Positions 925 to 15,714 of a stretch of DNA of 64,000 nt are shown one piece after another. Source of the DNA: Dulcicalothrix desertica PCC 7102 (GTDB lineage Bacteria; Cyanobacteriota; Cyanobacteriia; Cyanobacteriales; Nostocaceae); assembly GCF_003991905.1 (NCBI RefSeq), contig NZ_RSCL01000004.1:186001-250000 (forward strand), written 5' to 3'. The notes beneath the pieces were generated by a model. The model was not told where the DNA came from. It ran no database searches and was given only the letters and a program-made list of their open reading frames with translations. How positions within the stretch are numbered: position 1 is the stretch's first letter; every line of letters starts with the position of its first letter. The translations under genes and the position numbers were made by a program.

Positions 925-3489
925 TTACTGCCAGTTACCGACTAGTACGAAGGGAGACCAAATTGCTGGGTGTCCGTTGGCGTCGGAGATGATTTTGAGT
1001 TGCGCTTGACGAAGTGCTTCGGCTTTGTTTACTCCTGGTTTTTGAATTTGTTTGTAGAAGTTTTGAATTAATGGTACGGTGTCAGCGTCATTGACAAACC
1101 ATAAGCTTGCTAATGTACTTTGAACTCCTGCACGCAATGCAACTCCTGCTAGACCTAGTGTGGCACGACTGTCACCTGCGGCTGTTTGACAAGCGCTTAG
1201 TGTTAGTAAGTCAATTGGTTTTTTGCTGCGACGTAATACTGACTCGAATTCGTTGAGTGATACTCGTTGGTCGTAAAGTTGTAAAAAGGTGCTTTCGGTA
1301 TCGGCGCCAAATTTACCGTGAGTTGCGAGGTGAATGATAGGATAATCGTTTTTATCTATTTGTTTTTGTAGGTTTGCGAGAGTAAAGTCTTTGTCTAAGA
1401 AGCGTTTACCACCTAGTATTTTTTCTAAGCCCTCAGTTTCAAATTTGACATTTGGGAGAGGTGCAAATGGTGGAATTTCTACGCTTAAACCAAATATTGC
1501 GGCTCTAGCATCGCGTGCTATTGGAGTGTTATTAGGTGTTAGGTTTAACCCAAGTGTTGTAGCAACGGCATATTTCTCAATTAGGAATTGTTTACCGTCA
1601 TGTAGTGCAGCCATTGGGATGTTTCGCAGCACACCATCGCTAACAAAGACGAGTGTTTTCGGATTAGCTTGTGCTAAATCATCTGCCATTGGACGAATCA
1701 GCAAATCATAGACTTTTTGCGCTTCAGCAAGATATTCATCGGTGGAAATATCTTCGAGAGTATAGCGCAAGCGGTCAATATTTTTTGCTAATTCTTCAGC
1801 AGATATTGCAACTGGGTAGCTTTTAAGATTACCGTTGCTTAAACGCAGCAACATGTGAGTTTTTTGGTCAAGAACAACTGAGTGAATAAATGCTGTGTCT
1901 TTATTACTGTACGCAATTTCTGCACTAGATTTAGAATTACGTGCGACTTGAACACATTCGTCTCCAAAAAAGTTTTGCAGTTCGTTTAATTGCAGTAGTT
2001 CAGAGACTTGAAGCACTTCGGAGATTTTCGATTTTTGATTTCCGCTTTTGGATTCTTTTTCTTTGTCTCCATCTTCCAAGAGCAGTGCCATAAGTTCGCG
2101 ATATACGGGTTCTACTGAGTCACGCAAATCAAATTGTAGGTCTTTGCTGGCAACTGCAATATCTCCGCGAATGCTTTGCAATGAAGCAATGGCGCCTCGA
2201 TACGATGTGATAGCTGCTTCGCGTTCGCCTTGAGCATTATATATTCGTCCAGCTTGTGCTTGCGCGCGGTAAAGACTGTCGGTAGCATAAACTTGCTGTG
2301 CTGCAAATTGCGCTTGCTGGGTTAATTCCATTGCTTTACCCAGATTTCCCATTTTTTCGTAAATGGCGCCTAATGTAGTCAAAGCAAAAGATTCTGCCCG
2401 TTGGTCTCTTAGGCGCCGCGATGTTGCAATGGCTTTTTCTAAGTTTTGGACTTTTATATTTTGGGAATCTTCAGCACTTAAACTTTCTGCCAAGTTAATC
2501 AAAGCGTATGCTTTTGAACGAGAATCAGGAACAGCATCTAATAATGCCATTGCTTCCGAACGGTATTTATTAACTGTATTTTGTGAAGAAGGTTCGCTCT
2601 GTTCTAAGAAGCGGGCAAGATTAAGCATTGCTTTCGCTTGCTGAATTCCACCAATAGTTTTACTTATATCAATACTTTGCTCGTAAGCTTGTTTTGAGAA
2701 AGTAAAGTCTTGTTGCATCAAACCATTTAACCGCACAACTTCCTTATCATCGCCTTCAAGTTTTACTGAGTTTGCTTGCAGGGCATAACGTTGGTAGCGG
2801 TTGCTATATACATTACCAAGATTATTTAAAGCTGTGGCAATGAAACCAGAATTTTTTAAGTTTGTAGAAAATTCTAAGCTTTTTTTATTTGATGTAATGG
2901 CAGCATCAAATTCACCTAGTGCTAAATAAGCATTTCCCAAGGCGCCATTAGCTGCTGCCAAGGTATTTAAATCTTGGTACTTACTAGCTTTTTCAATAGC
3001 TTCTTCAAGCAAAGGTACAGCAGTTCGCGACTGTCCTAGTGCATTGTAAGCTTGTGCTTGTTCGGTTAGTACTTGTGCTAACAAACGATTTGATTCTTTG
3101 CCCTGACTCGATTTATAGATTTTGATTGCTTCATCCCAAGCTTGAATTGCTTGTCCTAAACTACCCACTTGGCGATAAGCAGAACCTAAATTTGTATAGA
3201 GAGTCGCTAGAACTTTTCTATCTGATGTTTGCTTTAATGCTTGACTCCACAGCTTTATCGCTTCTTGGTATTGTCCTGAGTTGTATTGGAACAATGCTTG
3301 GTCTTGCTGTGTTGTAGTTTCTTTGTCCAAAGCAACTACTGAACCAGATATTTCCTGATGATTGTTTGGTTGGGCAGCTTGTACTTCTTCTTCCCAGAAT
3401 AAGAAATGTGAGAGTAAGTAAGCTAGCAATCCTACACATAACGAGAGGCAAAAGCGGTATAGCCCCTTCTGTCGAATATTAAATCTCAT
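925..3489 (-). CDS. TPR-repeat CHAT-domain protein (caspase-like peptidase family)
   Basis: 854 residues. The N-terminus carries a hydrophobic segment (about residues 10-30), so it is exported or membrane-anchored. Residues about 55-440 are tandem tetratricopeptide repeats (A..LGxxY...G....A...), a protein-docking scaffold. The C-terminal ~290 residues are a CHAT domain, related to caspases and separases: the His of LATHGKFG (H724) and the Cys of LSACQT (C767) are the expected catalytic dyad, and both are present. TPR-CHAT proteins such as HetF in cyanobacteria act as proteases or scaffolds in cell signalling; the substrate here is unknown. It faces away from a block of DUF928, CHASE2-kinase and exoprotein genes with which it probably shares function. 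Confidence 0.9.
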   Translation of the reverse strand: MRFNIRQKGLYRFCLSLCVGLLAYLLSHFLFWEEEVQAAQPNNHQEISGSVVALDKETTTQQDQALFQYNSGQYQEAIKLWSQALKQTSDRKVLATLYTNLGSAYRQVGSLGQAIQAWDEAIKIYKSSQGKESNRLLAQVLTEQAQAYNALGQSRTAVPLLEEAIEKASKYQDLNTLAAANGALGNAYLALGEFDAAITSNKKSLEFSTNLKNSGFIATALNNLGNVYSNRYQRYALQANSVKLEGDDKEVVRLNGLMQQDFTFSKQAYEQSIDISKTIGGIQQAKAMLNLARFLEQSEPSSQNTVNKYRSEAMALLDAVPDSRSKAYALINLAESLSAEDSQNIKVQNLEKAIATSRRLRDQRAESFALTTLGAIYEKMGNLGKAMELTQQAQFAAQQVYATDSLYRAQAQAGRIYNAQGEREAAITSYRGAIASLQSIRGDIAVASKDLQFDLRDSVEPVYRELMALLLEDGDKEKESKSGNQKSKISEVLQVSELLQLNELQNFFGDECVQVARNSKSSAEIAYSNKDTAFIHSVVLDQKTHMLLRLSNGNLKSYPVAISAEELAKNIDRLRYTLEDISTDEYLAEAQKVYDLLIRPMADDLAQANPKTLVFVSDGVLRNIPMAALHDGKQFLIEKYAVATTLGLNLTPNNTPIARDARAAIFGLSVEIPPFAPLPNVKFETEGLEKILGGKRFLDKDFTLANLQKQIDKNDYPIIHLATHGKFGADTESTFLQLYDQRVSLNEFESVLRRSKKPIDLLTLSACQTAAGDSRATLGLAGVALRAGVQSTLASLWFVNDADTVPLIQNFYKQIQKPGVNKAEALRQAQLKIISDANGHPAIWSPFVLVGNWQ

Positions 3490-3760
3490 GTTTTATTAAA
3501 TAAGGCTTTTCCGACAATTGAACTTTTTATACTCGCTAAAAGTCAATCGTAAAACTATTGAATTATCTATACTTTTTTAGCTTGCCATCATTTTTATAAG
3601 TATTATTACTGATAAAAAGACCGTGAAGCTAAAATCATAAAACTTTGTTTTATTTATATAAAATTTATTGAATAATCGCACAAATACGGATTGCTGATTT
3701 ATTAACTGCGAATACGATTAATTGGTAGTAATGTTTATTTTAAACCTTATTACAAATTCT
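3490..3760. other. A+T-rich upstream region of the CHAT gene
   Basis: About 270 bases between the divergent CHAT and first DUF928 genes, before the repeat at 3761. It should hold both promoters, but I see no convincing -35/-10 pair and no small gene. Confidence 0.4.
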
Positions 3761-3829
3761 TAGAAACCGGGTTTTTTGTTCGATATCTTGCAATAAAAAG
3801 GCGATTTTGGATAGAAACCCGGTTTCTTT
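3761..3829. repeat. AGAAACC-ended short repeat (copy A)
   Basis: About 69 bp bounded by TAGAAACCGGGTTTTTT on the left and AGAAACCCGGTTTCTT on the right, themselves near-palindromic and inverted relative to each other. The middle contains TATCTTGCAATAAAAA. Similar elements lie at 25202, 27454 and 58878, so this is a dispersed MITE-like family. Confidence 0.75.
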
Positions 3830-3851
3830 AATTTAAGGGTTAATCACATAT

Positions 3852-4580
3852 ATGTTCAAACACAAACTTACGGTAGCTATAGGCGCCGCTTCATTATCGT
3901 TATCATTACTGGGTGCATTTTTACCTGTATTCATTAATGAGGCACCTGCACACGCACAACTTAATGGTTACAAGCCTCCTGGCGGTCGGGGAAGAATGCA
4001 GCGCACCGAAGGAAGTGGAGCGCGCGGTTGTACGAATTCAATTCCTGTAACGCTGAATTTAGTAACACCCAGCGACCACACTGCGCTTACAACCCAAGCG
4101 CGTCCAACCTTTTTGTGGCATATTTCAAATGCGACAACTGCACCAATGGTGTTCACTTTGACGGCGCCGGGTCAAAACAAGCCTATTCATCAAGAGTTTC
4201 TCAAGGCAAACAAAGCTGGAATTATGAAGCTTGAACTGCCTGCAAAAGTTCCAGAGCTAAAAGTTGGTCAAGAGTACCGTTGGACTGTAGCACTTGTGTG
4301 TAACGACAAACGTCCTTCTCAAAATATCAACGCGCGTGCTTGGATTGAAAGAGTTGCAACCAGTTCGCAGTTAAAGCAACAGTTGGCAGCAGCTAGGAAT
4401 GATAACGAACGCGCGCTTGCTTACACTCAGTCCGGTATTTGGTACGACGGAATGAGTATTTTAAACAATTTGCAATCTTCCAATTCAAATCCAAAAGCAA
4501 ATGAGTTATTTACATCATTGCTTAAACAAGTTGGTTTGAACAAAATTGCAACCGCAGGAAGTCAGCGTTCAAGCAACTAG
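3852..4580 (+). CDS. DUF928 family secreted protein (first copy)
   Basis: 242 residues with a signal peptide (hydrophobic core about residues 8-30, APAHAQ cleavage region). The mature part shows the DUF928 pattern: RGxxQRTEGxGxRGC near the new N-terminus, then RPTFLWHI, YRWTVALVCND, RPSQN and ARAWIERV. The last third is helical (LAYTQSGIWYDGMS). The family is almost confined to cyanobacteria and has no established function. The preserved cysteine pair (RGC and LVCND) suggests a periplasmic disulfide. The start ATG follows the signal-peptide logic. It sits 80 bases before a paralogue and is probably co-transcribed with it and the CHASE2 kinase. Confidence 0.85.
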   Translation: MFKHKLTVAIGAASLSLSLLGAFLPVFINEAPAHAQLNGYKPPGGRGRMQRTEGSGARGCTNSIPVTLNLVTPSDHTALTTQARPTFLWHISNATTAPMVFTLTAPGQNKPIHQEFLKANKAGIMKLELPAKVPELKVGQEYRWTVALVCNDKRPSQNINARAWIERVATSSQLKQQLAAARNDNERALAYTQSGIWYDGMSILNNLQSSNSNPKANELFTSLLKQVGLNKIATAGSQRSSN

Positions 4581-4660
4581 AAGTAGTGGTCAGAGGTTAG
4601 GGACTACTAATTTTCTAACCTCTTAATTTCCATTCCAAAACCCCTTAGCAAAGAGTCGCG

Positions 4661-5386
4661 ATGTTTTCTACCAAATTGACAAAAATTTTAGCGCTCACTA
4701 GTGTATTTACTATCCTCCAGTCTGTAGAGCTAAGTACCTCTTCATATGCTAGTACCTTTCAAGGTTATACTCCCCCAAAAGAACGCAGACCACTACAACG
4801 AACTGATGGTGCAGGTTCGCGCGGTTGTCCAGAAGGATTGTTTGGTTCTTTGAATTTGCTTGTGCCAAACGACCATGTAGGGTTAACTATTTCTGAACGT
4901 CCAACATTTTCTTGGCACGTCTCAGCAGTTCCCTCAACCCCGATGAAATTTGCTTTAGTTGAACCCGGAGTTGCAAAGCCATTATTCGTTAAAAAAATAA
5001 AGGTAGATAAACCTGGTTTAGTGCAACTGCAAATTCCTTCAGATATTAAAGGATTGACAGTTGGTAAGCAATACCGCTGGACAGTTTCGCTTGTATGTAA
5101 TACTAAACGTCCTTCACTAAGCATTTATGCACGAAGTTGGATAGCACGTGTTCCACTCACCGAAGTAAATAATTTCTCTAAAACAGCATCGGAACAGCAA
5201 GTTAGGGATAAAGCGATGTTTTACGCTCAACAAGGTATTTGGTACGATGCAGTAGCAACCATGACTAAAGCGTATTTAAGTAATCCAGATAGTCAGTTTT
5301 ACGCTACATACCTTCATGGTTTATTAAACCAAGTTGGGTTATCTGATGTTATGGCAAATGAATTACAGCGTCTTGCTGAAGGTTAA
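4661..5386 (+). CDS. DUF928 family secreted protein (second copy)
   Basis: 241 residues, a clear paralogue of the preceding gene: signal peptide, then QRTDGAGSRGC, RPTFSWHV, YRWTVSLVCNTKRPS, ARSWIARV and YAQQGIWYDAV. The two copies align along their full length but differ at many positions, so the duplication is not recent. Function is unknown; the secreted nature and the neighbours (CHASE2 sensor kinase, CHAT protein, haemagglutinin-type exoproteins) point to a role at the cell surface or in the periplasm. The next gene starts about 200 bases later. Confidence 0.85.
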   Translation: MFSTKLTKILALTSVFTILQSVELSTSSYASTFQGYTPPKERRPLQRTDGAGSRGCPEGLFGSLNLLVPNDHVGLTISERPTFSWHVSAVPSTPMKFALVEPGVAKPLFVKKIKVDKPGLVQLQIPSDIKGLTVGKQYRWTVSLVCNTKRPSLSIYARSWIARVPLTEVNNFSKTASEQQVRDKAMFYAQQGIWYDAVATMTKAYLSNPDSQFYATYLHGLLNQVGLSDVMANELQRLAEG

Positions 5387-5530
5387 GGCAACGGATACAA
5401 CGGATGTAACAGATAAATGTATGGTTCCTGATTTCTTTGAGAAATTGGGAATTTTATAATTTTATCAGTAAATAGTTTTTTTAATATGAAGATAGGCGAC
5501 TTTGTTTTGGGAATACTACAGAGAGGTAAG

Positions 5531-5568
5531 GACGTTACATGTGGAGACTAAACATGTAACGTCTCTAC
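5531..5568. repeat. GACGTTACATGT/ACATGTAACGTC palindrome
   Basis: A 12-bp inverted repeat with a 9-base loop that continues into CTCTAC on the right, a variant of the GTAGAGACG family. It lies just upstream of the CHASE2 kinase gene, unlike most copies, which follow genes. Confidence 0.7.
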
Positions 5569-5589
5569 TGGCTTTTATAAACGAAGACG

Positions 5590-7809
5590 ATGAAATTTTT
5601 TTATACCAAGCTTTTAAAGCATTTAGAGAAAGGCGCCAGTTCATCTGTTGGCGCCAGAAAAGTCAGTAAGATAGTCGGTAAAATCGCGAAAAATAGCCAA
5701 AAATGGCATGGAACACTGGTAATAGCACCAGGTGTTGCAGGGTTAATAATTGGCATTCGACTGTTGGGTTTTATACAACCTTTGGAATTAGCTGCTTTGG
5801 ATATAAGATTTCGGTTGCGTCCTGCTGAACCAGTGGATAAAAGGTTTGTAATTATAGGTATTGAAGAGTCTGATATTACGCGGTTTCAACAATGGCCCTT
5901 TTCTGACAAAGATTTGGCAAGGTTAATAAATAAGATTAAAGAACAACAGCCTAGAATTATTGGTTTAGATTTATACCGCAATTTGCCTGTTGAACCTGGT
6001 CATGCAGAATTATTAGAAGTTTATAAAACTACCCCTAATCTTTACGGTATTCAAAAAATAGTCGAAAACGGGTTTAATTCTAAAATTGGCCCTCCCCCAA
6101 TACTTGGTGAAAAAGGTCAAACAGGTTCAAATGATGTAACTGTTGATATCGATGGAGTGGTACGTCGTGGTGTGCTTTTTCCAGAACCAGGAAACCCACT
6201 ACCAAGTTTAGGTTTAGTTACCGCAGGAACTTATCTAGAAAAAGAAGGTATTAAACCCGAAGCTGCTCCTGATGGTTCAATAAAATTCAAAAATACTGTT
6301 TTTCGTCCTTTTGAAGCGTCAGATGGTAGCTATATTAATGCTGATGCAGGTGGTTATCAAATTATATTAAATTACCGTGGTCAGGCGAAGTCATTTAATT
6401 ATGTTTCGCTGATAGATGTTTTGGAAGGTCGCATTCCAAATGATTTAATGCGCGACCGTATTGTTTTAATCGGCGCCAAAGCAGCAAGTCTTAATGATGC
6501 TTTTTATACACCTTATAGCCGTGGATTTTCTAGTACGCCAGAAAGGACACCAGGGGTAGAAATTCAGGCAACCTTAGCGAGTCAAGTATTAAGTTCTGTG
6601 TTAGATGGGCGCCCGTCAATTTATGTATGGCATGACTCGTTAGAACACTTATGGATTTTTGTATGGGGTTTACTAATAGCCACTCTCGGTTGGAAATGGC
6701 GAAATATCACAGCTTTGCATTACCTGCTTCGTATGCTAACACTATTATTATTGAGTACTGTAAGTGTTGGTATTATTAGCTATGTTAGTTTTTTGTTTGG
6801 ATGGTGGATTCCTGTACTATCACCAGTACTAGCTTTAATTGCCTCGACAACTGGAATTTCTAGTTATGTTTATATTAGTAGATTACGCGAACTCAACTCA
6901 GAGCTTGAGAAAACCGTCAAAAATTTAGAAGATGCAATGGATGAGTTACAACAGTCTCAAATTCAACTTATTCAAAGCGAAAAAATGTCCACTTTAGGAC
7001 AATTAGTTGCTGGGGTAGCTCACGAAATAAATAACCCAGTTGGTTTTATATCAGGTAATCTTAAATGCTTAGAAGGGTATGTTCAAGATTTAGTCAATCA
7101 TATACAGCTTTATCATCAACATTTCCCTGAACCTGGTGAAGAAATTGAAGAAGATGCCGAAACAATAGATATTGAATATGTATTAGAAGATATGCCAAAA
7201 ATGGTCGCCTCAATGCACGTTGGAGTTACTAGAATCAAAGAAATTAGTATCTCTTTACGCACTTTTTCGCGCAGTGATACAGCGAGTAAAGTGGCTTATA
7301 ATATTCACGAAGGAATAGACAGTACAATATTAATTCTTAAACATAGATTAAAAGCCAATAGTGTTCGTCCAGATATACAAATTATTAAAGAATACGGCAA
7401 GTTACCAATGGTTAATTGCTATCCTGGGCAATTAAACCAAGTAATTATGAATTTAATTGCCAATGCTATTGACGCACTCGATGATTCTAATGAAGGTAAA
7501 ACGTTTACAGAGATTGAAAATAATCCAAATAAGATTATTATTACCACTGAAGTGGTTACAACGGTGGTTACAACGGTGGTTACAACGCAAGCTATTATCA
7601 AAATTAAAGACAATGGTCGTGGCATGTCAGACGAAGTTAAGCAAAAAGTATTTGAACACTTGTTCACAACAAAAGGTGTTGGCAAAGGTACTGGTTTAGG
7701 TTTATCTATTAGCCGTCAAATAGTCGAAGAAACCCACGGTGGTAAGCTGAGTTGCGCTTCTGAACCAGGTAACGGCGCCGAATTCCGGATTGAAATTCCT
7801 ATTTCTTAA
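5590..7809 (+). CDS. CHASE2-domain sensor histidine kinase
   Basis: 739 residues. After a short cytoplasmic N-terminus and one hydrophobic helix (about 48-65) comes an extracytoplasmic CHASE2 sensor domain (about 70-340; AALDIRFRLRP and IGIEESDITRFQQWPF are typical). Two or three transmembrane helices (about 350-430), a coiled coil and the HisKA domain follow, with the phospho-acceptor His of HEINNPVGF at about residue 478. The ATPase domain has an N box (NLIANAIDAL), G1 (DNGRGMS) and G2 (GTGLGLSIS), so it should be active. No response regulator is adjacent. Odd feature: three 12-bp direct repeats encode VVTTVVTTVVTT between the N and G1 boxes. The CHASE2 ligand is unknown. Confidence 0.92.
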   Translation: MKFFYTKLLKHLEKGASSSVGARKVSKIVGKIAKNSQKWHGTLVIAPGVAGLIIGIRLLGFIQPLELAALDIRFRLRPAEPVDKRFVIIGIEESDITRFQQWPFSDKDLARLINKIKEQQPRIIGLDLYRNLPVEPGHAELLEVYKTTPNLYGIQKIVENGFNSKIGPPPILGEKGQTGSNDVTVDIDGVVRRGVLFPEPGNPLPSLGLVTAGTYLEKEGIKPEAAPDGSIKFKNTVFRPFEASDGSYINADAGGYQIILNYRGQAKSFNYVSLIDVLEGRIPNDLMRDRIVLIGAKAASLNDAFYTPYSRGFSSTPERTPGVEIQATLASQVLSSVLDGRPSIYVWHDSLEHLWIFVWGLLIATLGWKWRNITALHYLLRMLTLLLLSTVSVGIISYVSFLFGWWIPVLSPVLALIASTTGISSYVYISRLRELNSELEKTVKNLEDAMDELQQSQIQLIQSEKMSTLGQLVAGVAHEINNPVGFISGNLKCLEGYVQDLVNHIQLYHQHFPEPGEEIEEDAETIDIEYVLEDMPKMVASMHVGVTRIKEISISLRTFSRSDTASKVAYNIHEGIDSTILILKHRLKANSVRPDIQIIKEYGKLPMVNCYPGQLNQVIMNLIANAIDALDDSNEGKTFTEIENNPNKIIITTEVVTTVVTTVVTTQAIIKIKDNGRGMSDEVKQKVFEHLFTTKGVGKGTGLGLSISRQIVEETHGGKLSCASEPGNGAEFRIEIPIS
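7552..7587 (+). repeat. three tandem 12-bp repeats inside the kinase gene
   Basis: GTGGTTACAACG is repeated three times without change, keeping frame and encoding (VVTT)3. It lies in the ATP-binding domain of the CHASE2 kinase. Exact nucleotide identity points to recent slippage expansion. Confidence 0.9.
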
Positions 7810-7913
7810 TTCTTGATTTCACCCAAAGCTAAAAAAAGTTCAAATATCTTGTACGGTGATAGCTTAAAATATAATTACATTGAAAAAATGAAAATTATTA
7901 TTATAATTACCAA

Positions 7914-10760
7914 ATGAAAAGTTTTTATTTCAAGATATCCCTGTATAGTAGCTTGATGCATGTCATATTTGTTCCAGGGGAAGTCATAGCTCAAATTGTT
8001 CCAGATACAACGCTACCAATAAATTCTCAAGTTACGCAACAGCAAAGCATTAATGCTATTGAGGGTGGAACGACAGCAGGAACTAGTTTGTTTCATAGTT
8101 TTGATTCGTTTTCAGTTCCGACAGGTAGCAGCGTTTTTTTTAACAATGCACAGAATATTCAGAATATATTATCACGGGTGACAGGTCAATCAATATCTAA
8201 TATTGATGGTTTAATTCGTGCTAACGGAAGCGCTAATTTATTTTTACTTAACCCGAACGGAATTACTTTTGGTAAAAACGCGCGTTTGGATATTGGTGGG
8301 TCATTTATTGGTAGTACTGCTTCGAGTTTAAAGTTTGCTAATGATACTACATTTAGTGCCAAAGCTTCTGAATCTACACCGTTGTTGACAATCGGTATTC
8401 CTGTTGGTTTGCAATATGGAGTAAATCCGGGAAAGATAGAAGCGCAAGAAAATACTTTACAGGTGCAACCAAATCAAACTTTAGCTTTTTTCGGTGGTGA
8501 AATTATTTTAAAAGGGTCAACACTAATGGCACCAGGGGGTCAAATCGAATTAGGAAGTGTGAGTGATAACAGTTTAGTTAAGCTGACTCCTGTAGAAAAG
8601 GGTTTAAATGTGGGCTACAGTGGGGTGCAAAATTTTGGAACTATTCAAGTTGAAAGTGGCTCAAACATTGATGCCAGTGGTATTGGTGGAGGTGATATTC
8701 GTTTAACAGCACGCAATTTACGAGTAAATGAAGGTTCTCGTCTTGCATCTTTTACTCTAGCATCAGGGACATCGGGTGATATCACTCTTAACGCTACCGA
8801 GTCAATTGAGTTAACTGGCACTGGTGGATATATAGAAGGTTTGGAGCAAGTTATCACCCCTACTAATATATTTGCACTACGCAATGGCATATATAACAGC
8901 AGTGTAGGTGAGAGTGGAAGTGGCGCCATTGAGATTAACACTCAAAAATTAAGCGCACGGGATGGATTTTTCATTCTCGCATCTCCTTTTGGTCGAGCAA
9001 ACGGTGGGTCTATAAATATTAATGCCTCTGAATCAATTGAAGTGATTAGCTCATTATTCTCGACAGGGGGAAGAATTGGAAGTACAGGAGACGGGAGCAA
9101 CTTTACTATAAACACTCGGAATATGTTGCTTTCGGATGCAGCAATAGTTTCAACTGCTGGTTTAGGTACTGGTAGATTTGGTAATTTGAGCGTTAGTGCT
9201 TCCGAAAGCTTGGAATTGATTGGTGGCAACTTAAAAATTCCTTTTTTTAATGACCTAAGAACACTTTTAACTACTGCCACAACTAGTTTATCAGATGCTG
9301 GAAATTTGGAGATTAACACCAAAATACTAACTGTTCGCGATGGTGCCCAAATTTCAGCCAGTACTGTAGGTCAAGGTAAAGGAGGAAATTTAACCATAAA
9401 TGCATCCTCGTTGGTGGAAGTTATTGGTATTTCATCGGATGGAATGATTTCTAGTGGTATATTTGTTCAGGCAGACCCAGGTACAACAGCTCCGGCAGGA
9501 AATTTAACGCTTAATACTCGTGAATTGTTAGTTAGTGATGGCGCCTTAATAGCAGCTACTGCATTTGGTGCAGGAAAGGGAGGCAATTTAACAGTTAATG
9601 CTACCGATATCAAATTGCTTGGTACAGCAAACGACCGTGTAACATTATCTCGTGGGTTATCTGCTCAAGCAGCTCCTAATTCAACAGGAGCGGCTGGAGA
9701 TTTAACAATAAATACTCGTAATTTGTTAGTACGAGATGGAGCGCAAGTTAATTCTGGTACTTTTGGCGTAGGTAAAGGTGGAAATTTGACGGTTAATGCG
9801 GATGGCACAGTAGAACTTATAGGCGCCTCTAAAGATGGTATTTTTGCGAGTGGCTTATTTGCTGAAGCAGGACTTGGAACAACAGGAGCAGCAGGAGATT
9901 TAAAGATTAACGTTAATAAATTGATTGTTCGGGATGGCGCAAGAGTTGCAGTTAGAAGTCAGGGAAAAGGTAACGCTGGTAATTTTACTGTCAACGCTCA
10001 CTCTATCCGTTTAGATAACAAAGCAACTTTTACAGCAGACACTCAAAGTATAAATATTGACCCTAGACAAGAGCAAGCTACTATTACTTTAAACACTGAA
10101 GATTTAATATTGCGTCGTGGTAGTAATATTACTACTAACGCCAAAGGACAAAATGTCATCGGTGGGAATATTAATATTAATACTCGTGTGTTAGCTGCAT
10201 TTGAAGACAGCGATATTGGCGCCAATTCCACAGACGGACGTGGTGGAAACATCAAAATCAAAACTCAAGGTATTTTTGGTACGCAGTTTCGTAATATACC
10301 AAGTATTAATAGTGATATTACCGCAACAGGCGCCAGTTCACAGTTAAGTGGAAATGTCGAAATTAATCAACCCGATGTTGACGCGACTTCAGGATTGTTT
10401 GAAATATCAGTTGATTTTGTAGACGCAAGTCATTTAATTGTTCAGGGTTGTCCAGCATATAAAGGTAATTCATTTATTATCACTGGACGTGGAGGTTTAC
10501 CATCTTTGCCTAACTCGATTGGGCGCAGTAATCTTGCTTTAGGTATTGATTGGGTTGAAAATAGAGTTTTGCAAGGAACAGAGACTATAAAACATAATAA
10601 TATCTCACGTTTCCCAATCAATTCATATATAAAGCAAAATCAAATAGTGGAAGCATCAAGTTGGCAAATTAATCAAAAAGGTGAAGTATTACTAACTGCC
10701 TCTAAACCTATAACTAAATTATTTTCATCTACTTCAGACTTAAGTATAAAATGTTATTAA
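7914..10760 (+). CDS. haemagglutinin-type exoprotein (two-partner secretion family), first copy
   Basis: 948 residues. A signal peptide (about 1-27) is followed by the two-partner secretion domain: NLFHSF-like LFHSFDSFSV, FFNNAQNIQNILSRVTG, SANLFLLNPNGITFGKNA and LDIGGSFIGSTA are the diagnostic motifs (residues about 30-150). The rest consists of repeated units of about 60 residues (AGDLTINTRNLLVRDGAQ, GKGGNLTVNA), predicted to form a beta-helix. Such proteins are passed through an FhaC/ShlB pore and displayed as adhesins or released. No ShlB-like gene is in the window. The C-terminal ~100 residues (CPAYKGNSFIITGRGGLP, WQINQKGEV) are a conserved cyanobacterial tail. It follows the CHASE2 kinase gene by about 100 bases. 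Confidence 0.9.
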   Translation: MKSFYFKISLYSSLMHVIFVPGEVIAQIVPDTTLPINSQVTQQQSINAIEGGTTAGTSLFHSFDSFSVPTGSSVFFNNAQNIQNILSRVTGQSISNIDGLIRANGSANLFLLNPNGITFGKNARLDIGGSFIGSTASSLKFANDTTFSAKASESTPLLTIGIPVGLQYGVNPGKIEAQENTLQVQPNQTLAFFGGEIILKGSTLMAPGGQIELGSVSDNSLVKLTPVEKGLNVGYSGVQNFGTIQVESGSNIDASGIGGGDIRLTARNLRVNEGSRLASFTLASGTSGDITLNATESIELTGTGGYIEGLEQVITPTNIFALRNGIYNSSVGESGSGAIEINTQKLSARDGFFILASPFGRANGGSININASESIEVISSLFSTGGRIGSTGDGSNFTINTRNMLLSDAAIVSTAGLGTGRFGNLSVSASESLELIGGNLKIPFFNDLRTLLTTATTSLSDAGNLEINTKILTVRDGAQISASTVGQGKGGNLTINASSLVEVIGISSDGMISSGIFVQADPGTTAPAGNLTLNTRELLVSDGALIAATAFGAGKGGNLTVNATDIKLLGTANDRVTLSRGLSAQAAPNSTGAAGDLTINTRNLLVRDGAQVNSGTFGVGKGGNLTVNADGTVELIGASKDGIFASGLFAEAGLGTTGAAGDLKINVNKLIVRDGARVAVRSQGKGNAGNFTVNAHSIRLDNKATFTADTQSINIDPRQEQATITLNTEDLILRRGSNITTNAKGQNVIGGNININTRVLAAFEDSDIGANSTDGRGGNIKIKTQGIFGTQFRNIPSINSDITATGASSQLSGNVEINQPDVDATSGLFEISVDFVDASHLIVQGCPAYKGNSFIITGRGGLPSLPNSIGRSNLALGIDWVENRVLQGTETIKHNNISRFPINSYIKQNQIVEASSWQINQKGEVLLTASKPITKLFSSTSDLSIKCY

Positions 10761-10889
10761 TTTTGTGGAGTTGCAGGTGAAGCAAAGACCTACTTACATT
10801 TCCAAATTAGGGATAAAAGGAAGATTTTATGGAAATATTTGGTTTAATAATGTAGTCTTTGTAAATACAAATATAATTACAGTAAAAGT

Positions 10890-11123
10890 ATGCCAAGCAA
10901 CATAATTATTTTAATCGCTGCATTAATTATTGCTTTTTTTGTCTTCAGAGCTTTACTTAATGTAACAAAAACACTTATTAGTACAGCTATTACGATTCTT
11001 GTCGTTGTAGTTATACTATCAGTTTTTGGTGTTGCTCCTCAAGACTTAATGCAGGAGCTAAAAAACTTACCTCAAATAATTGGACGCTCAATAACGGAAA
11101 TCAGGAAGCTGTTTGGATTTTAA
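10890..11123 (+). CDS. small two-helix membrane protein, unknown function
   Basis: 77 residues. Residues 4-22 and 32-50 are strongly hydrophobic and form two membrane helices with a short turn; the C-terminal ~25 residues (LMQELKNLPQIIGRSITEI) look amphipathic. I do not recognise a named family. It lies between two large exoprotein genes on its own, about 130 bases after the first. ATG start with only a weak ribosome-binding site. Confidence 0.65.
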   Translation: MPSNIIILIAALIIAFFVFRALLNVTKTLISTAITILVVVVILSVFGVAPQDLMQELKNLPQIIGRSITEIRKLFGF

Positions 11124-11249
11124 AGACTTTCTTCTTATTGGTACATCAAAATCCATAATTATACCCATGTCAGATTCGGTTTTGCGAAGTCAGGAAAGAT
11201 TTTATAGCAGAAGGTATAAATGTTTGAGCAGCGTTTAATTATTTATGCT

Positions 11250-14081
11250 TTATTTTGGGCAAACTGCTTTTATCGCACGCTCTTGTGATGGAGTGACAGT
11301 CGGCGCCGTTGCTACCAGTTCAACAGAACCATCTTCTGTTTTTATCCAACCTTGCGCTTCGACTATTGGGGAATTAAGTTGAGGTTGTTGAGGCATATTT
11401 GATACTTTAGCCTTTTCGTCTAAAGAAGCAAGCGCACGTTGTGTTGTTGTACCTGGCATCATGTCGAGAGGATTCGGTGGTAAGCTACCACGTCCTGTAA
11501 TAGTAAATTCGCCTAATGGTTTGGCGCCGGGAATTCTAGGACAAATTTGAGCAACTTGCCGAGTTGCATCAACAACTTCTTCGGGCAATTCTATTATTGC
11601 TTGAGTAGGCTGAACTTCAGGTTGCTGAATCAATATTTGACCTTGCACACCAAGTTCAGAACTCGCTGTAATATCGCTGCTATTCAGTAAATCTTCAGGA
11701 CGCGCTTCTATTCCAAATAATCCCTGTGTTTTGATGTTAATGTTACCACCATTACCTGTAAAAGCATTGGCGGTAATATTGCTATTTTCTTTACCTACTG
11801 CCACTATAAACGGGACATCAATGGTAATATTTCCGCCATTTCCACCTTGGTCAGATATGCCTGCTGTTGTTGAAATTCCACTATTACGACGCAGTAGTAA
11901 CAAATCTTTTAGCTGCAATCGAATGTTACCACCATTTCCAGATGTGGTAAAAGTGCCGATAGTACTATTGTTATCAAGCTGAAGCGAACGCGCGTTAATT
12001 TCTATATCATTGGCATTGCCGGTTTGAGATGGAAACAAACTAAGAGCTAGCTCAAGTTGCTGTAAGTCCTCTACTGTAGCACCAGACCGCTTGACTGTAT
12101 CAATATAATCCCTTAACGAGATTGCTGCAGCAAGAATACCGCTAGTTTTATCAAAGTAAATCGTACCGCCTGAATCAATCACGACTTTTCCAGCATTAAC
12201 TGGCCCGTAGGCTGCGGTTGATAATGCACTCTTATTCGCAAAGGTAATATCGCCACGAGTTTTCACAATTATGTCACCTGCGTTACCCCCTCCAAGACTA
12301 CTAGTAGTAACACCCATTCGATTGGTAATCGTTAGTGAGTCCGCATTAATCCTGATATCACCTCCTTCGCCCTTGGCTCTATTTGATACTATGCTAGCAA
12401 TTCCGCTAGCGTCAACGTTTTGGTTTGCACCATCAAGGACGATTTCGTTACGCGCGTTAATAGTGATGTCGCCAGCCGAACCTTTGCCGAAAGTACTCGT
12501 ATTGATATACGCTGTATTTCTAACAAAAAGCGAATCCGTATTAATATTGATATCTCCTGCTTTTCCTTCCGCATTAGGAGATACAGCGCTAGTAATAGTA
12601 GTTGGTTTTCCCATTCCATCCACCACCACCGTATCGCGCGCATCAATCTGTATATTTCCTGCGTCTCCTTTTGCATTAGTGGCAGAAGATATAGTTGACC
12701 CGTTTTTTACGTAGAGTGAGTTAGTTGTAATTTTGATATTCCCACCTTTGCCTTCTCTTCCAAATAGAGTGCTAAAGATTCCGCTAGGGATACCATCCAA
12801 ACCTTTTCCATCTACTACAATAGTATCGCGGGAATTAATAGTGACGTTGCCAGAAGCTCCAGTAGCAAAAGGTACGGAACCAAGCATCGACCCATTTTTT
12901 AGGAAAAGCGAACCTGTGTTAATATCCACGTTTCCAGCTTTTCCCACTGCTCCAACATCTGTGGTACTGGCAATTAATCCGCCTTCTACGGTAATGGCGC
13001 CGCGAGTATTAATGATGATATTACCAGCATCACCTTGTCCCAAGCTCACAGTTCCAATACTTGAATTTTGTTTCAAAGACAAAGAGTTAGCGTCAATAAT
13101 AATATCGCCACCCGGAATAACTGCATTTGAATTCGTTTGAGGTGCAAAGCTGTTGGCTAATTTAGCTTGAGTTAGTGAAATTGCACCTGTGGCATTAATA
13201 GTAATTTTTCCAGCTTGGCTTCGGGCTGTTGCTAATTCTTTAGTACTAGTTTGTAAGGAACTTTTGAAAATATCAATATTGCGTCCATAAAGTGAAATAT
13301 TTCCTTTATCGTTTGATACAACGTTTATTATTGAATTCGCAATCGAGGTATCCGCACGTGCAGTATCTTTAGGAAAATCAAGTCGGATACCATCCTGGTC
13401 AAAAACTAGTCCCACTGTTCCAGCTTCAGATAACCCACCAAGTTCGACTCGTCCTCCCGAATTTAATATTGCTGAATTGTTTAAATTTACCGCTCCTCCC
13501 ACTAACAAAAGACTGTTACCTAATTTGATAAGTCTTTGTGCTTGACTTTGAATTGGTTGTGGATTGATTTGATTATATAGTAATGCTGATGGATTCACTG
13601 TTAACAACGCTGGTGCTTCTGGATTTGTCGCACTAAAAAATCCTTGCTCACCAAATTGAACTTTGTTTGCTGTTGTCCCAACAAATGAGCCACGTATATC
13701 CAACCGTGCATCCTTGCCAAAAATAATACCTGAAGGGTTAATTAAAAATAAATTTGCGGCGCCATTAACTCCCAACGTTCCCAAAATTGTTGATGCGTTT
13801 CCACCTGTTACGCGCGTCATTATATTTTGCACCCCAGTGGGATTGCTAAAATACACGCTTTGACCACTACCAATATTAAACTGACCAAAACTATGGAATA
13901 GGTTATTACCACGTTGGGCGCCACCATTTATCAAATCTATACCATTACCAATTGGTGTAATGACGGAATTTTCTTTACCAAGCGAATCGTCACGAGTAAC
14001 CTGAGCATGTGAAGACGGCGCCCATGCCATGATTACAAGGCTAGTAAATAGGAAACATGATGTGGATATTCGCGTAACCAT
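11250..14081 (-). CDS. haemagglutinin-type exoprotein (two-partner secretion family), second copy
   Basis: 943 residues, converging with the preceding genes. Signal peptide (about 1-27, cleavage near SHAQ), then the two-partner secretion domain with NLFHSFGQFNI, GVQNIMTRVTG, AANLFLINPSGIIFGKDARL and IRGSFVGTTA. The body is a long run of beta-helix-type repeats (GNIxINxRxxIxVxG; KGGNIKITTNSLYV). Near the C-terminus ICPRIPGAKPLGEFTITGRG and WIKTEDGSVELVA match the conserved tail also seen in the copy at 7914. Likely a surface adhesin or filament secreted through an outer-membrane FhaC-like pore encoded elsewhere. Confidence 0.9.
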   Translation of the reverse strand: MVTRISTSCFLFTSLVIMAWAPSSHAQVTRDDSLGKENSVITPIGNGIDLINGGAQRGNNLFHSFGQFNIGSGQSVYFSNPTGVQNIMTRVTGGNASTILGTLGVNGAANLFLINPSGIIFGKDARLDIRGSFVGTTANKVQFGEQGFFSATNPEAPALLTVNPSALLYNQINPQPIQSQAQRLIKLGNSLLLVGGAVNLNNSAILNSGGRVELGGLSEAGTVGLVFDQDGIRLDFPKDTARADTSIANSIINVVSNDKGNISLYGRNIDIFKSSLQTSTKELATARSQAGKITINATGAISLTQAKLANSFAPQTNSNAVIPGGDIIIDANSLSLKQNSSIGTVSLGQGDAGNIIINTRGAITVEGGLIASTTDVGAVGKAGNVDINTGSLFLKNGSMLGSVPFATGASGNVTINSRDTIVVDGKGLDGIPSGIFSTLFGREGKGGNIKITTNSLYVKNGSTISSATNAKGDAGNIQIDARDTVVVDGMGKPTTITSAVSPNAEGKAGDININTDSLFVRNTAYINTSTFGKGSAGDITINARNEIVLDGANQNVDASGIASIVSNRAKGEGGDIRINADSLTITNRMGVTTSSLGGGNAGDIIVKTRGDITFANKSALSTAAYGPVNAGKVVIDSGGTIYFDKTSGILAAAISLRDYIDTVKRSGATVEDLQQLELALSLFPSQTGNANDIEINARSLQLDNNSTIGTFTTSGNGGNIRLQLKDLLLLRRNSGISTTAGISDQGGNGGNITIDVPFIVAVGKENSNITANAFTGNGGNINIKTQGLFGIEARPEDLLNSSDITASSELGVQGQILIQQPEVQPTQAIIELPEEVVDATRQVAQICPRIPGAKPLGEFTITGRGSLPPNPLDMMPGTTTQRALASLDEKAKVSNMPQQPQLNSPIVEAQGWIKTEDGSVELVATAPTVTPSQERAIKAVCPK

Positions 14082-14616: not shown

Positions 14617-15714
<1,098 letters not shown>

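Follow-up and report, generated by a model that had tools for sequence, protein, structure and literature searches.

The 64,000-nucleotide stretch of the Dulcicalothrix desertica PCC 7102 genome analyzed here (the window; contig NZ_RSCL01000004.1, positions 186,001 to 250,000) carries a block of genes for a CHAT-TPR protein, two DUF928 proteins, a CHASE2 sensor histidine kinase, and two exoproteins with two-partner secretion (TPS) domains. Our analysis points to DUF928 as the probable exported partner of CHASE2 in a family of envelope-sensing cassettes, in which CHAT-TPR would be the third core component. A prediction made earlier from the sequence alone (the original prediction) had listed the genes of the block, and open reading frame (ORF) and Pfam scans recovered every named gene at the coordinates collected in Table 1. 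It had further proposed that these genes form one system sensing the outside, with DUF928 as its undescribed component; this fits our results, except that DUF928 is tied first to CHASE2 and second to CHAT-TPR, and not specially to the exoproteins.

The association of DUF928 with CHASE2 is seen both in gene order and in the agreement of their trees. Where a DUF928 locus also holds a CHASE2 gene (n = 60), the two genes lie on the same strand in 53 cases and have no intervening ORF in 47. Mirror-tree comparison of the same 60 loci gave a correlation of 0.67 (0.63 on ranks), a value matched in none of 1,000 permutations, and the D. desertica paralogues alone gave 0.64 (rank 0.60, n = 17). For these trees short domain pieces were removed, which kept 40 of 41 CHAT and 31 of 35 TPS sequences, and TPS-CHAT fusions were excluded from the CHAT set. 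The corresponding correlations with DUF928 were 0.36 for CHAT (rank 0.58, n = 40) and 0.28 for TPS (rank 0.24, n = 31). With CHAT allowed for, the agreement of DUF928 with CHASE2 was 0.69 (rank 0.55, n = 37), and with TPS allowed for it was 0.62 (n = 29); with CHASE2 allowed for, DUF928-CHAT gave 0.26 (rank 0.47, n = 37) and DUF928-TPS 0.08 (rank 0.08, n = 29). Agreement between DUF928 and CHASE2 was also found within classes of CHASE2 output, at 0.82 for the CHAT-CHASE2 form (n = 23), 0.69 for one kinase type (n = 18), and 0.88 for the mixed remainder (n = 13), while a second kinase type with six members gave a nonsignificant 0.79 (84 of 2,000 permutations as high). The tree and partial tests therefore identify CHASE2 as the best partner of DUF928 and CHAT-TPR as the second on ranks, and leave TPS without a tie of its own.

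Linkage within the 11.4-Mb D. desertica genome exceeds chance. The genome contains 20 DUF928 matches (19 above cut-off), 27 for CHASE2, 70 for CHAT, 47 for TPS (46 above cut-off), and 9 for ShlB, 7 of them above 100 bits and all 9 on contigs other than that of the window. We counted as strong CHAT the 29 of 70 matches scoring at least 140 bits, a line set after the list had been viewed, and took as the null uniform placement along the genome length, ignoring contig ends. Within 5 kb of the 20 DUF928 matches, CHASE2 was found for 17 (random mean, 0.50), strong CHAT for 13 (0.52), TPS for 10 (0.87), and ShlB for 1 (0.16). Within 10 kb the counts rose to 19, 16, 13, and 3, where uniform placement predicts about 1.0, 1.0, 1.7, and 0.3, respectively.

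The wider sample of DUF928-centered loci was not randomly drawn: two sets of 20 are high scorers among the matches listed, and 8 further loci hold relatives of the window protein. A separate, distant set consists of 20 loci picked from other families; of the ten genomes that supplied it, four belong to the window's order. ORFs were called from the longest start, families were called with hidden Markov models built from the D. desertica genome, and the stretches that end at contig ends include L036, L053, L055, and L135. Leaving the distant set aside, CHASE2 was present in 60 of 67 DUF928-centered loci, CHAT-TPR in 41, TPS in 35, and ShlB in 10; at control regions with fixed coordinates in ten genomes, each of the four was found in 0 of 20, and some of the control regions were matched by general models (kinase, ABC, and TPR). 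The co-occurrence beyond chance on which the original prediction had staked itself is thus found, mainly within the window's order and much more weakly in distant loci. The ShlB-like secretion pore that it described as often lying alongside is rarer than implied, absent from the window's contig and present in 10 of the 67 loci.

Across genomes, DUF928 occurred in 55 of the 60 genomes of a set of relatives (D. desertica included) and in 37 of 117 genomes sampled phylum-wide, comprising 37 of 49 from the window's class and 0 of 68 outside it. CHASE2 was found in 65 of those 68 out-of-class genomes, all of them without DUF928. Among the 49 class genomes, all 37 with DUF928 had CHASE2 versus 5 of the 12 without it (Fisher P = 9e-6, a value that is optimistic because the genomes are related). 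Copy numbers of the two families in these 49 genomes correlated at r = 0.92, and the rank correlation with genome size allowed for was 0.86; for D. desertica this test used its 27 CHASE2 matches, as class-wide scoring took in only 20 candidates there. The pair also occurs on plasmids, where we found 22 records with DUF928 (20 listed) and 44 with CHASE2 (40 listed); among the matches listed, 16 of 20 DUF928 records had CHASE2 within about 6 kb, as judged by eye. Some cassette-bearing plasmids are conjugative or mobilizable, and the conjugative plasmid of Nostoc sp. UHCC 0302 carries DUF1822, CHAT-CHASE2, DUF928, TPS, ShlB, and CHAT genes that all point the same way and are separated by no more than 168 bases.

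Such mobility, together with the variable content of the cassettes, their greater frequency in large genomes, and the presence of window-type DUF928 (E value, 1e-30) in 2 of 7 congeneric genomes (D. desertica included), would fit variable islands in which defense or surface genes accumulate without common function. We regard this explanation as improbable, since accumulation alone would not be expected to yield a fixed DUF928-CHASE2 adjacency and orientation or tree agreement within output classes, and the copy-number correlation persists on ranks after genome size.

The conserved core of the cassette can be delimited in close relatives of the window. In the nearest relative, Calothrix sp. NIES-4105, the CHAT, both DUF928, and kinase genes are syntenic, with products at 88, 79, 75, and 88% identity, and psbA is 99% identical; between the kinase and psbA there is no TPS gene, and the interval holds a PIN-domain ORF instead. 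Both window TPS genes are missing from this syntenic interval (locus L028). L029 holds the four core genes with one TPS gene and L030 holds three core genes with a partial CHAT gene at the contig end. Both DUF928 copies are retained in all three of these loci, and the divergent arrangement of the CHAT-TPR and DUF928 genes recurs in each. A search of G003 with TPS exoprotein 1 yielded partial best matches of at most 58% identity. Because NIES-4105 has no TPS gene at the locus, the core comprises CHAT-TPR, the two DUF928 proteins, and the CHASE2 kinase, and the TPS genes of the window are probably optional cargo. The exoproteins that had been counted as members of the block are both present there, but they lie outside the conserved unit.

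This delimitation bears on a second explanation, in which DUF928 acts in the periplasm as a chaperone or assembly factor of TPS proteins, or else partners CHAT-TPR in processing them, and CHASE2 merely controls their expression. The frequency of TPS and CHAT-TPR genes at DUF928 loci agrees with such a role, as do the rank agreement of the DUF928 and CHAT trees, with and without CHASE2 allowed for, the appearance of the Ig-like chaperone PapD among weak Foldseek matches, and one locus (L106) in which DUF928 directly precedes a TPS-CHAT gene. A chaperone for TPS is harder to reconcile with the loss of the DUF928-TPS tie once CHASE2 is allowed for, with a window-type unit in NIES-4105 that has no TPS gene at the locus, and with the 27 of 47 D. 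desertica TPS matches that have no DUF928 inside 20 kb. For the D. desertica paralogues alone, the linear DUF928-CHAT agreement was only 0.16 (rank 0.41, n = 13), with 195 of 1,000 permutations as high on the linear measure. We consider this explanation unlikely and prefer DUF928 as the partner of CHASE2.

The cytoplasmic outputs of the CHASE2 proteins bear on where contact with DUF928 would occur. CHASE2 genes directly adjoining DUF928 encode a kinase, a kinase with a receiver, CHAT, AAA_35 (L033), GGDEF-EAL (L046 and L100), or TIR (L142) outputs. DUF928 is constant while the cytoplasmic output changes, and contact outside the cytoplasm is therefore the best explanation. The CHAT-CHASE2 form is often preceded by a DUF1822 gene and in some loci by a sigma-70-like gene, with matches below curated cut-offs. 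Two plasmid loci add further variety. In Kovacikia minuta (L142:4024-7173), three TIR stretches are joined to CHASE2 in a gene divergent from that of DUF928. In Nostoc NIES-3756 (L141:5384-9645), genes for an anti-sigma-factor antagonist, an ATP-binding protein, and a PP2C phosphatase precede CHASE2 and DUF928, and this run of genes is possibly a partner-switch output.

AlphaFold models of DUF928 proteins 1 and 2 (mean predicted local distance difference test scores of 78.7 and 76.5) both show an Ig-like β-sandwich followed by TPR-like C-terminal helices. For both, the best structural match is MtxA of Magnetospirillum (4z29), which for protein 1 gives a Z score of 10.7 over 156 aligned residues at a root mean square deviation (rmsd) of 4.5 (next best Z, 7.0) and for protein 2 a Z score of 8.9 over 159 residues at an rmsd of 4.9 (next best, 6.3), the match spanning both subdomains in each model. 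These values come from a second aligner that realigned the candidates of Foldseek; Foldseek alone returned mainly long or partial matches, with MtxA not among the 50 matches listed. MtxA as described (PMC4439547) has, like DUF928, a predicted signal peptide and a C-terminal Ig-like domain with five TPR helices, and its gene is followed by one for a CHASE2-adenylate cyclase, so that a CHASE2 gene adjoins it as in the DUF928 cassettes. MtxA is nevertheless a larger protein than DUF928, with a separate N-terminal region, and the neighboring CHASE2 protein has a cyclase output. The resemblance is one of fold and setting and not proven homology, because sequence search gives no link.

An alternative is that DUF928 serves as an adhesin or binding protein on the cell surface and is an output gene regulated by the CHASE2 system. 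DUF928 looks exported, with a hydrophobic N terminus in 84 of 97 proteins, and adhesins commonly have Ig-like folds, of which the structural matches include several. A regulated output gene need not coevolve with the sensor domain, and DUF928 is a small, single-module protein, unlike a repeat adhesin; we give this alternative little chance compared with a CHASE2 partner. In the loci analyzed, similar hydrophobic N termini were found in 39 of 41 CHAT-TPR and 29 of 39 TPS proteins. The corresponding counts were 0 of 14 for sigma-like proteins, 1 of 6 for response regulators, and 6 of 23 for DUF1822 proteins. The export signals of the window CHAT-TPR, DUF928, and TPS proteins were judged by eye and not by a predictor program.

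Other CHASE2 systems also have a gene for an exported protein beside CHASE2. The BiofilmReg-type operons of Burkholderiales combine a response regulator, a LysM-FecR protein, and a CHASE2 kinase (PMC5192318), so that an exported partner adjoins CHASE2 as DUF928 does, although it is LysM-FecR and not DUF928. In the annotated proteobacterial plasmid records examined, FecR lies directly upstream of CHASE2 in 4 of 4, without LysM in one alphaproteobacterial record, and CHAT or TPS is not annotated in these four stretches, unlike in the window block. For a profile comparison of FecR C-terminal parts with DUF928, we used three of the four records and three more, leaving out L140, where the cutting motif was absent, and L146, where the ORF caller gave no FecR ORF. 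This comparison showed no detectable sequence relation between FecR and DUF928, and Pfam sees only DUF928 in the window pair.

Described EACC2-caspase-CHASE2 systems, in which a caspase-like domain is fused to CHASE2 and accompanied by an extracytoplasmic function sigma factor and DUF1822 (PMC8195603), resemble sister cassettes of the D. desertica genome in which CHAT-CHASE2, DUF1822, and a sigma-70-like gene lie beside DUF928. They differ from the window unit, whose CHASE2 is carried on a histidine kinase and whose locus (L021) was matched by neither the DUF1822 nor the sigma models, and the passages of PMC8195603 concerned name neither DUF928, TPS, nor an exported CHAT-TPR protein. The one paper that a full-text search for DUF928 yielded reports such a gene from a single Nostoc genome, with CHASE2 and WD40 genes as its neighbors (PMC5587647). 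Searches of titles and abstract starts with combined family names found no account of the whole DUF928, CHASE2, CHAT, and TPS set. The window exoproteins share the TPS domain with two-partner secretion (type Vb) systems, and the contig is without a TpsB gene. Classical two-partner secretion is not known to include an exported CHAT protein or a sensor pair.

Several observations weigh against DUF928 as the partner of CHASE2. In distant genomes, CHASE2 lay within about 10 kb of DUF928 in 6 of 20 loci, CHAT-TPR was present in 2, and TPS was present in 3; the pairing therefore does not hold everywhere, and DUF928 may have a role by itself or in another setting. In four loci (L019, L034, L035, and L098) the CHASE2 gene lies 5.8 to 7.5 kb from DUF928, and these distant genes carry AAA_35 (shown for L019 and L034) or Ser/Thr kinase (L098) outputs. 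CHASE2 is the best but not the sole partner candidate, because the rank agreement for CHAT (0.58) approaches that for CHASE2 (0.63) and stays at 0.47 with CHASE2 allowed for. Matching trees can also arise from the shared history of a gene pair without binding. The MtxA match has an rmsd of 4.5 to 4.9, and a profile of 19 DUF928 sequences run against PDB sequences to an E value of 10 did not find 4Z29; likewise, six FecR C-terminal parts (two of them near identical) showed no relation when their profile was compared with that of 97 DUF928 sequences. At the window itself, no response regulator beside the kinase matched the island-type RR5 model in L021, and no ShlB/TpsB pore gene matched on the contig. 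The nine flanking proteins scanned hold no receiver domain; the search for a regulator covered the surroundings of the kinase and not the remainder of the genome.

The CHAT domains of these cassettes mostly keep the motifs of presumed caspase-like proteases. The His and Cys of the HLATHG and LSACQTA motifs, which we take to be the catalytic residues of CHAT, are kept in 39 of 41 CHAT-TPR and 25 of 26 CHAT-CHASE2 proteins, and in the window CHAT-TPR protein, which consists of a signal peptide, a TPR array, and a C-terminal CHAT domain, the motifs stand at 719 and 764 (read in L021). In two loci from two different genomes, a TPS secretion domain and a CHAT domain with both motifs are encoded in a single open frame (L046:2590-7287, 1,565 amino acids; L106:4733-9700, 1,655 amino acids), which places CHAT with an exoprotein in these cases. 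The protease step that the original prediction suggested for the CHAT domain therefore seems plausible on the strength of its motifs and these fused frames. In L059 and L066, on a stretch without DUF928, ShlB and CHAT-TPR frames (called from longest starts) overlap at their ends beside a TPS gene, which suggests that CHAT-TPR is a third partner of some TPS systems.

For the idea that DUF928 acts on the exoprotein tails we find no clear support. A strict TPS tail motif was present in 23 of 27 DUF928-linked proteins (several genomes) versus 8 of 20 unlinked proteins (D. desertica only; 20 fetched of 27). The second half of the tail is legible by eye in most of the 20 unlinked proteins, and the motif count for this reason does not establish an island-specific tail. 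A similar tail can be read in numerous TPS proteins that have no DUF928 nearby, and the tails are no more than a possible target of CHAT or DUF928.

We hypothesize that the window block represents one copy of a modular cassette for envelope sensing, whose constant pair would be an inner-membrane CHASE2 receptor and an exported DUF928 protein with its Ig-like and TPR-like module. DUF928 would most likely dock on the extracytoplasmic CHASE2 domain or present a ligand to it, and because the DUF928 gene is duplicated in the window, a single kinase may receive input from two cosensors. Exported CHAT-TPR, presumably a caspase-like cysteine protease, would complete the core, and the TPS exoproteins would be exchangeable surface cargo. 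Cleavage of a protein at the surface or in the periplasm might then be sensed by DUF928-CHASE2, and the kinase would pass the signal to an unlinked response regulator that would adjust surface genes. A broader proposition, which we put forward as speculative and rather doubtful, is that CHASE2 receptors generally use an exported coreceptor (DUF928 in cyanobacteria, MtxA in magnetotactic bacteria, or LysM-FecR in other proteobacteria) and that the cyanobacterial signal is made when an exported caspase-like protease acts on surface exoproteins; if true, this protease-made signal would be a bacterial counterpart of protease-activated receptors.

The ligands or factors recognized by CHASE2 domains are stated to be unknown (PMC10581220, PMC5192318), and a named, adjoining, and coevolving exported partner would make this question directly testable by binding or deletion. 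It would also provide a first functional assignment for the little-studied DUF928, in cassettes that are numerous in large cyanobacterial genomes, as the 20 DUF928 matches here illustrate, and are also plasmid borne. One phage-resistant substrain of Nostoc 7120 is reported to be mutated in a TPS-type gene, with adsorption listed as not determined (PMC10811720), and TPS proteins may matter in phage contact.

Table 1. Features of the DUF928-CHASE2 block and its border, in window coordinates
Feature	Coordinates	Strand	Length and basis
CHAT-TPR protein, exported	925..3489	-	854 aa; Pfam CHAT 1.3e-55 and TPR families
CHAT-TPR/DUF928 divergent intergenic region	3490..3851		Sequence
DUF928 protein 1, exported	3852..4580	+	242 aa; Pfam DUF928 6.8e-47
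DUF928 protein 2, exported	4661..5386	+	241 aa; Pfam DUF928 3.7e-42
CHASE2 sensor histidine kinase	5590..7809	+	739 aa; CHASE2 2e-65, HATPase_c 4.2e-22, HisKA 2.7e-6
TPS exoprotein 1, filamentous-haemagglutinin type	7914..10760	+	948 aa; Pfam TPS 3.5e-64
Small membrane protein	10890..11123	+	77 aa; sequence
TPS exoprotein 2	11250..14081	-	943 aa; Pfam TPS 6.3e-52
psbA, beyond the block	14617..15699	-	ORF/Pfam scan

The two DUF928 proteins of the window score 160 and 144.6 bits against PF06051 (curated cut-off, 26) and are 39% identical, protein 2 being a diverged tandem paralogue. The kinase is complete by the two-component standard, with HisKA and HATPase_c both above cut-off, and the intergenic region between the divergent genes presumably holds promoters for both directions. 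A Pfam scan of the 77-residue membrane protein gave no family above the curated cut-off. PADLOC supported no defense assignment, its matches among the window proteins being limited to TPR models and weak BovA ones.

The window is also rich in the palindrome GGCGCC, which occurs 121 times in its whole length versus 5.1 expected from shuffles. This repeat was already described in Calothrix PCC 7103 (PMC4390886), and we rejected it as new on account of that report. The usual cyanobacterial palindrome, GCGATCGC, is absent from the window, and the other D. desertica loci and NIES-4105 show nearly the same GGCGCC-rich, GCGATCGC-poor pattern, while GCGATCGC is the frequent palindrome of the two in 12 of the 14 other groups of loci.

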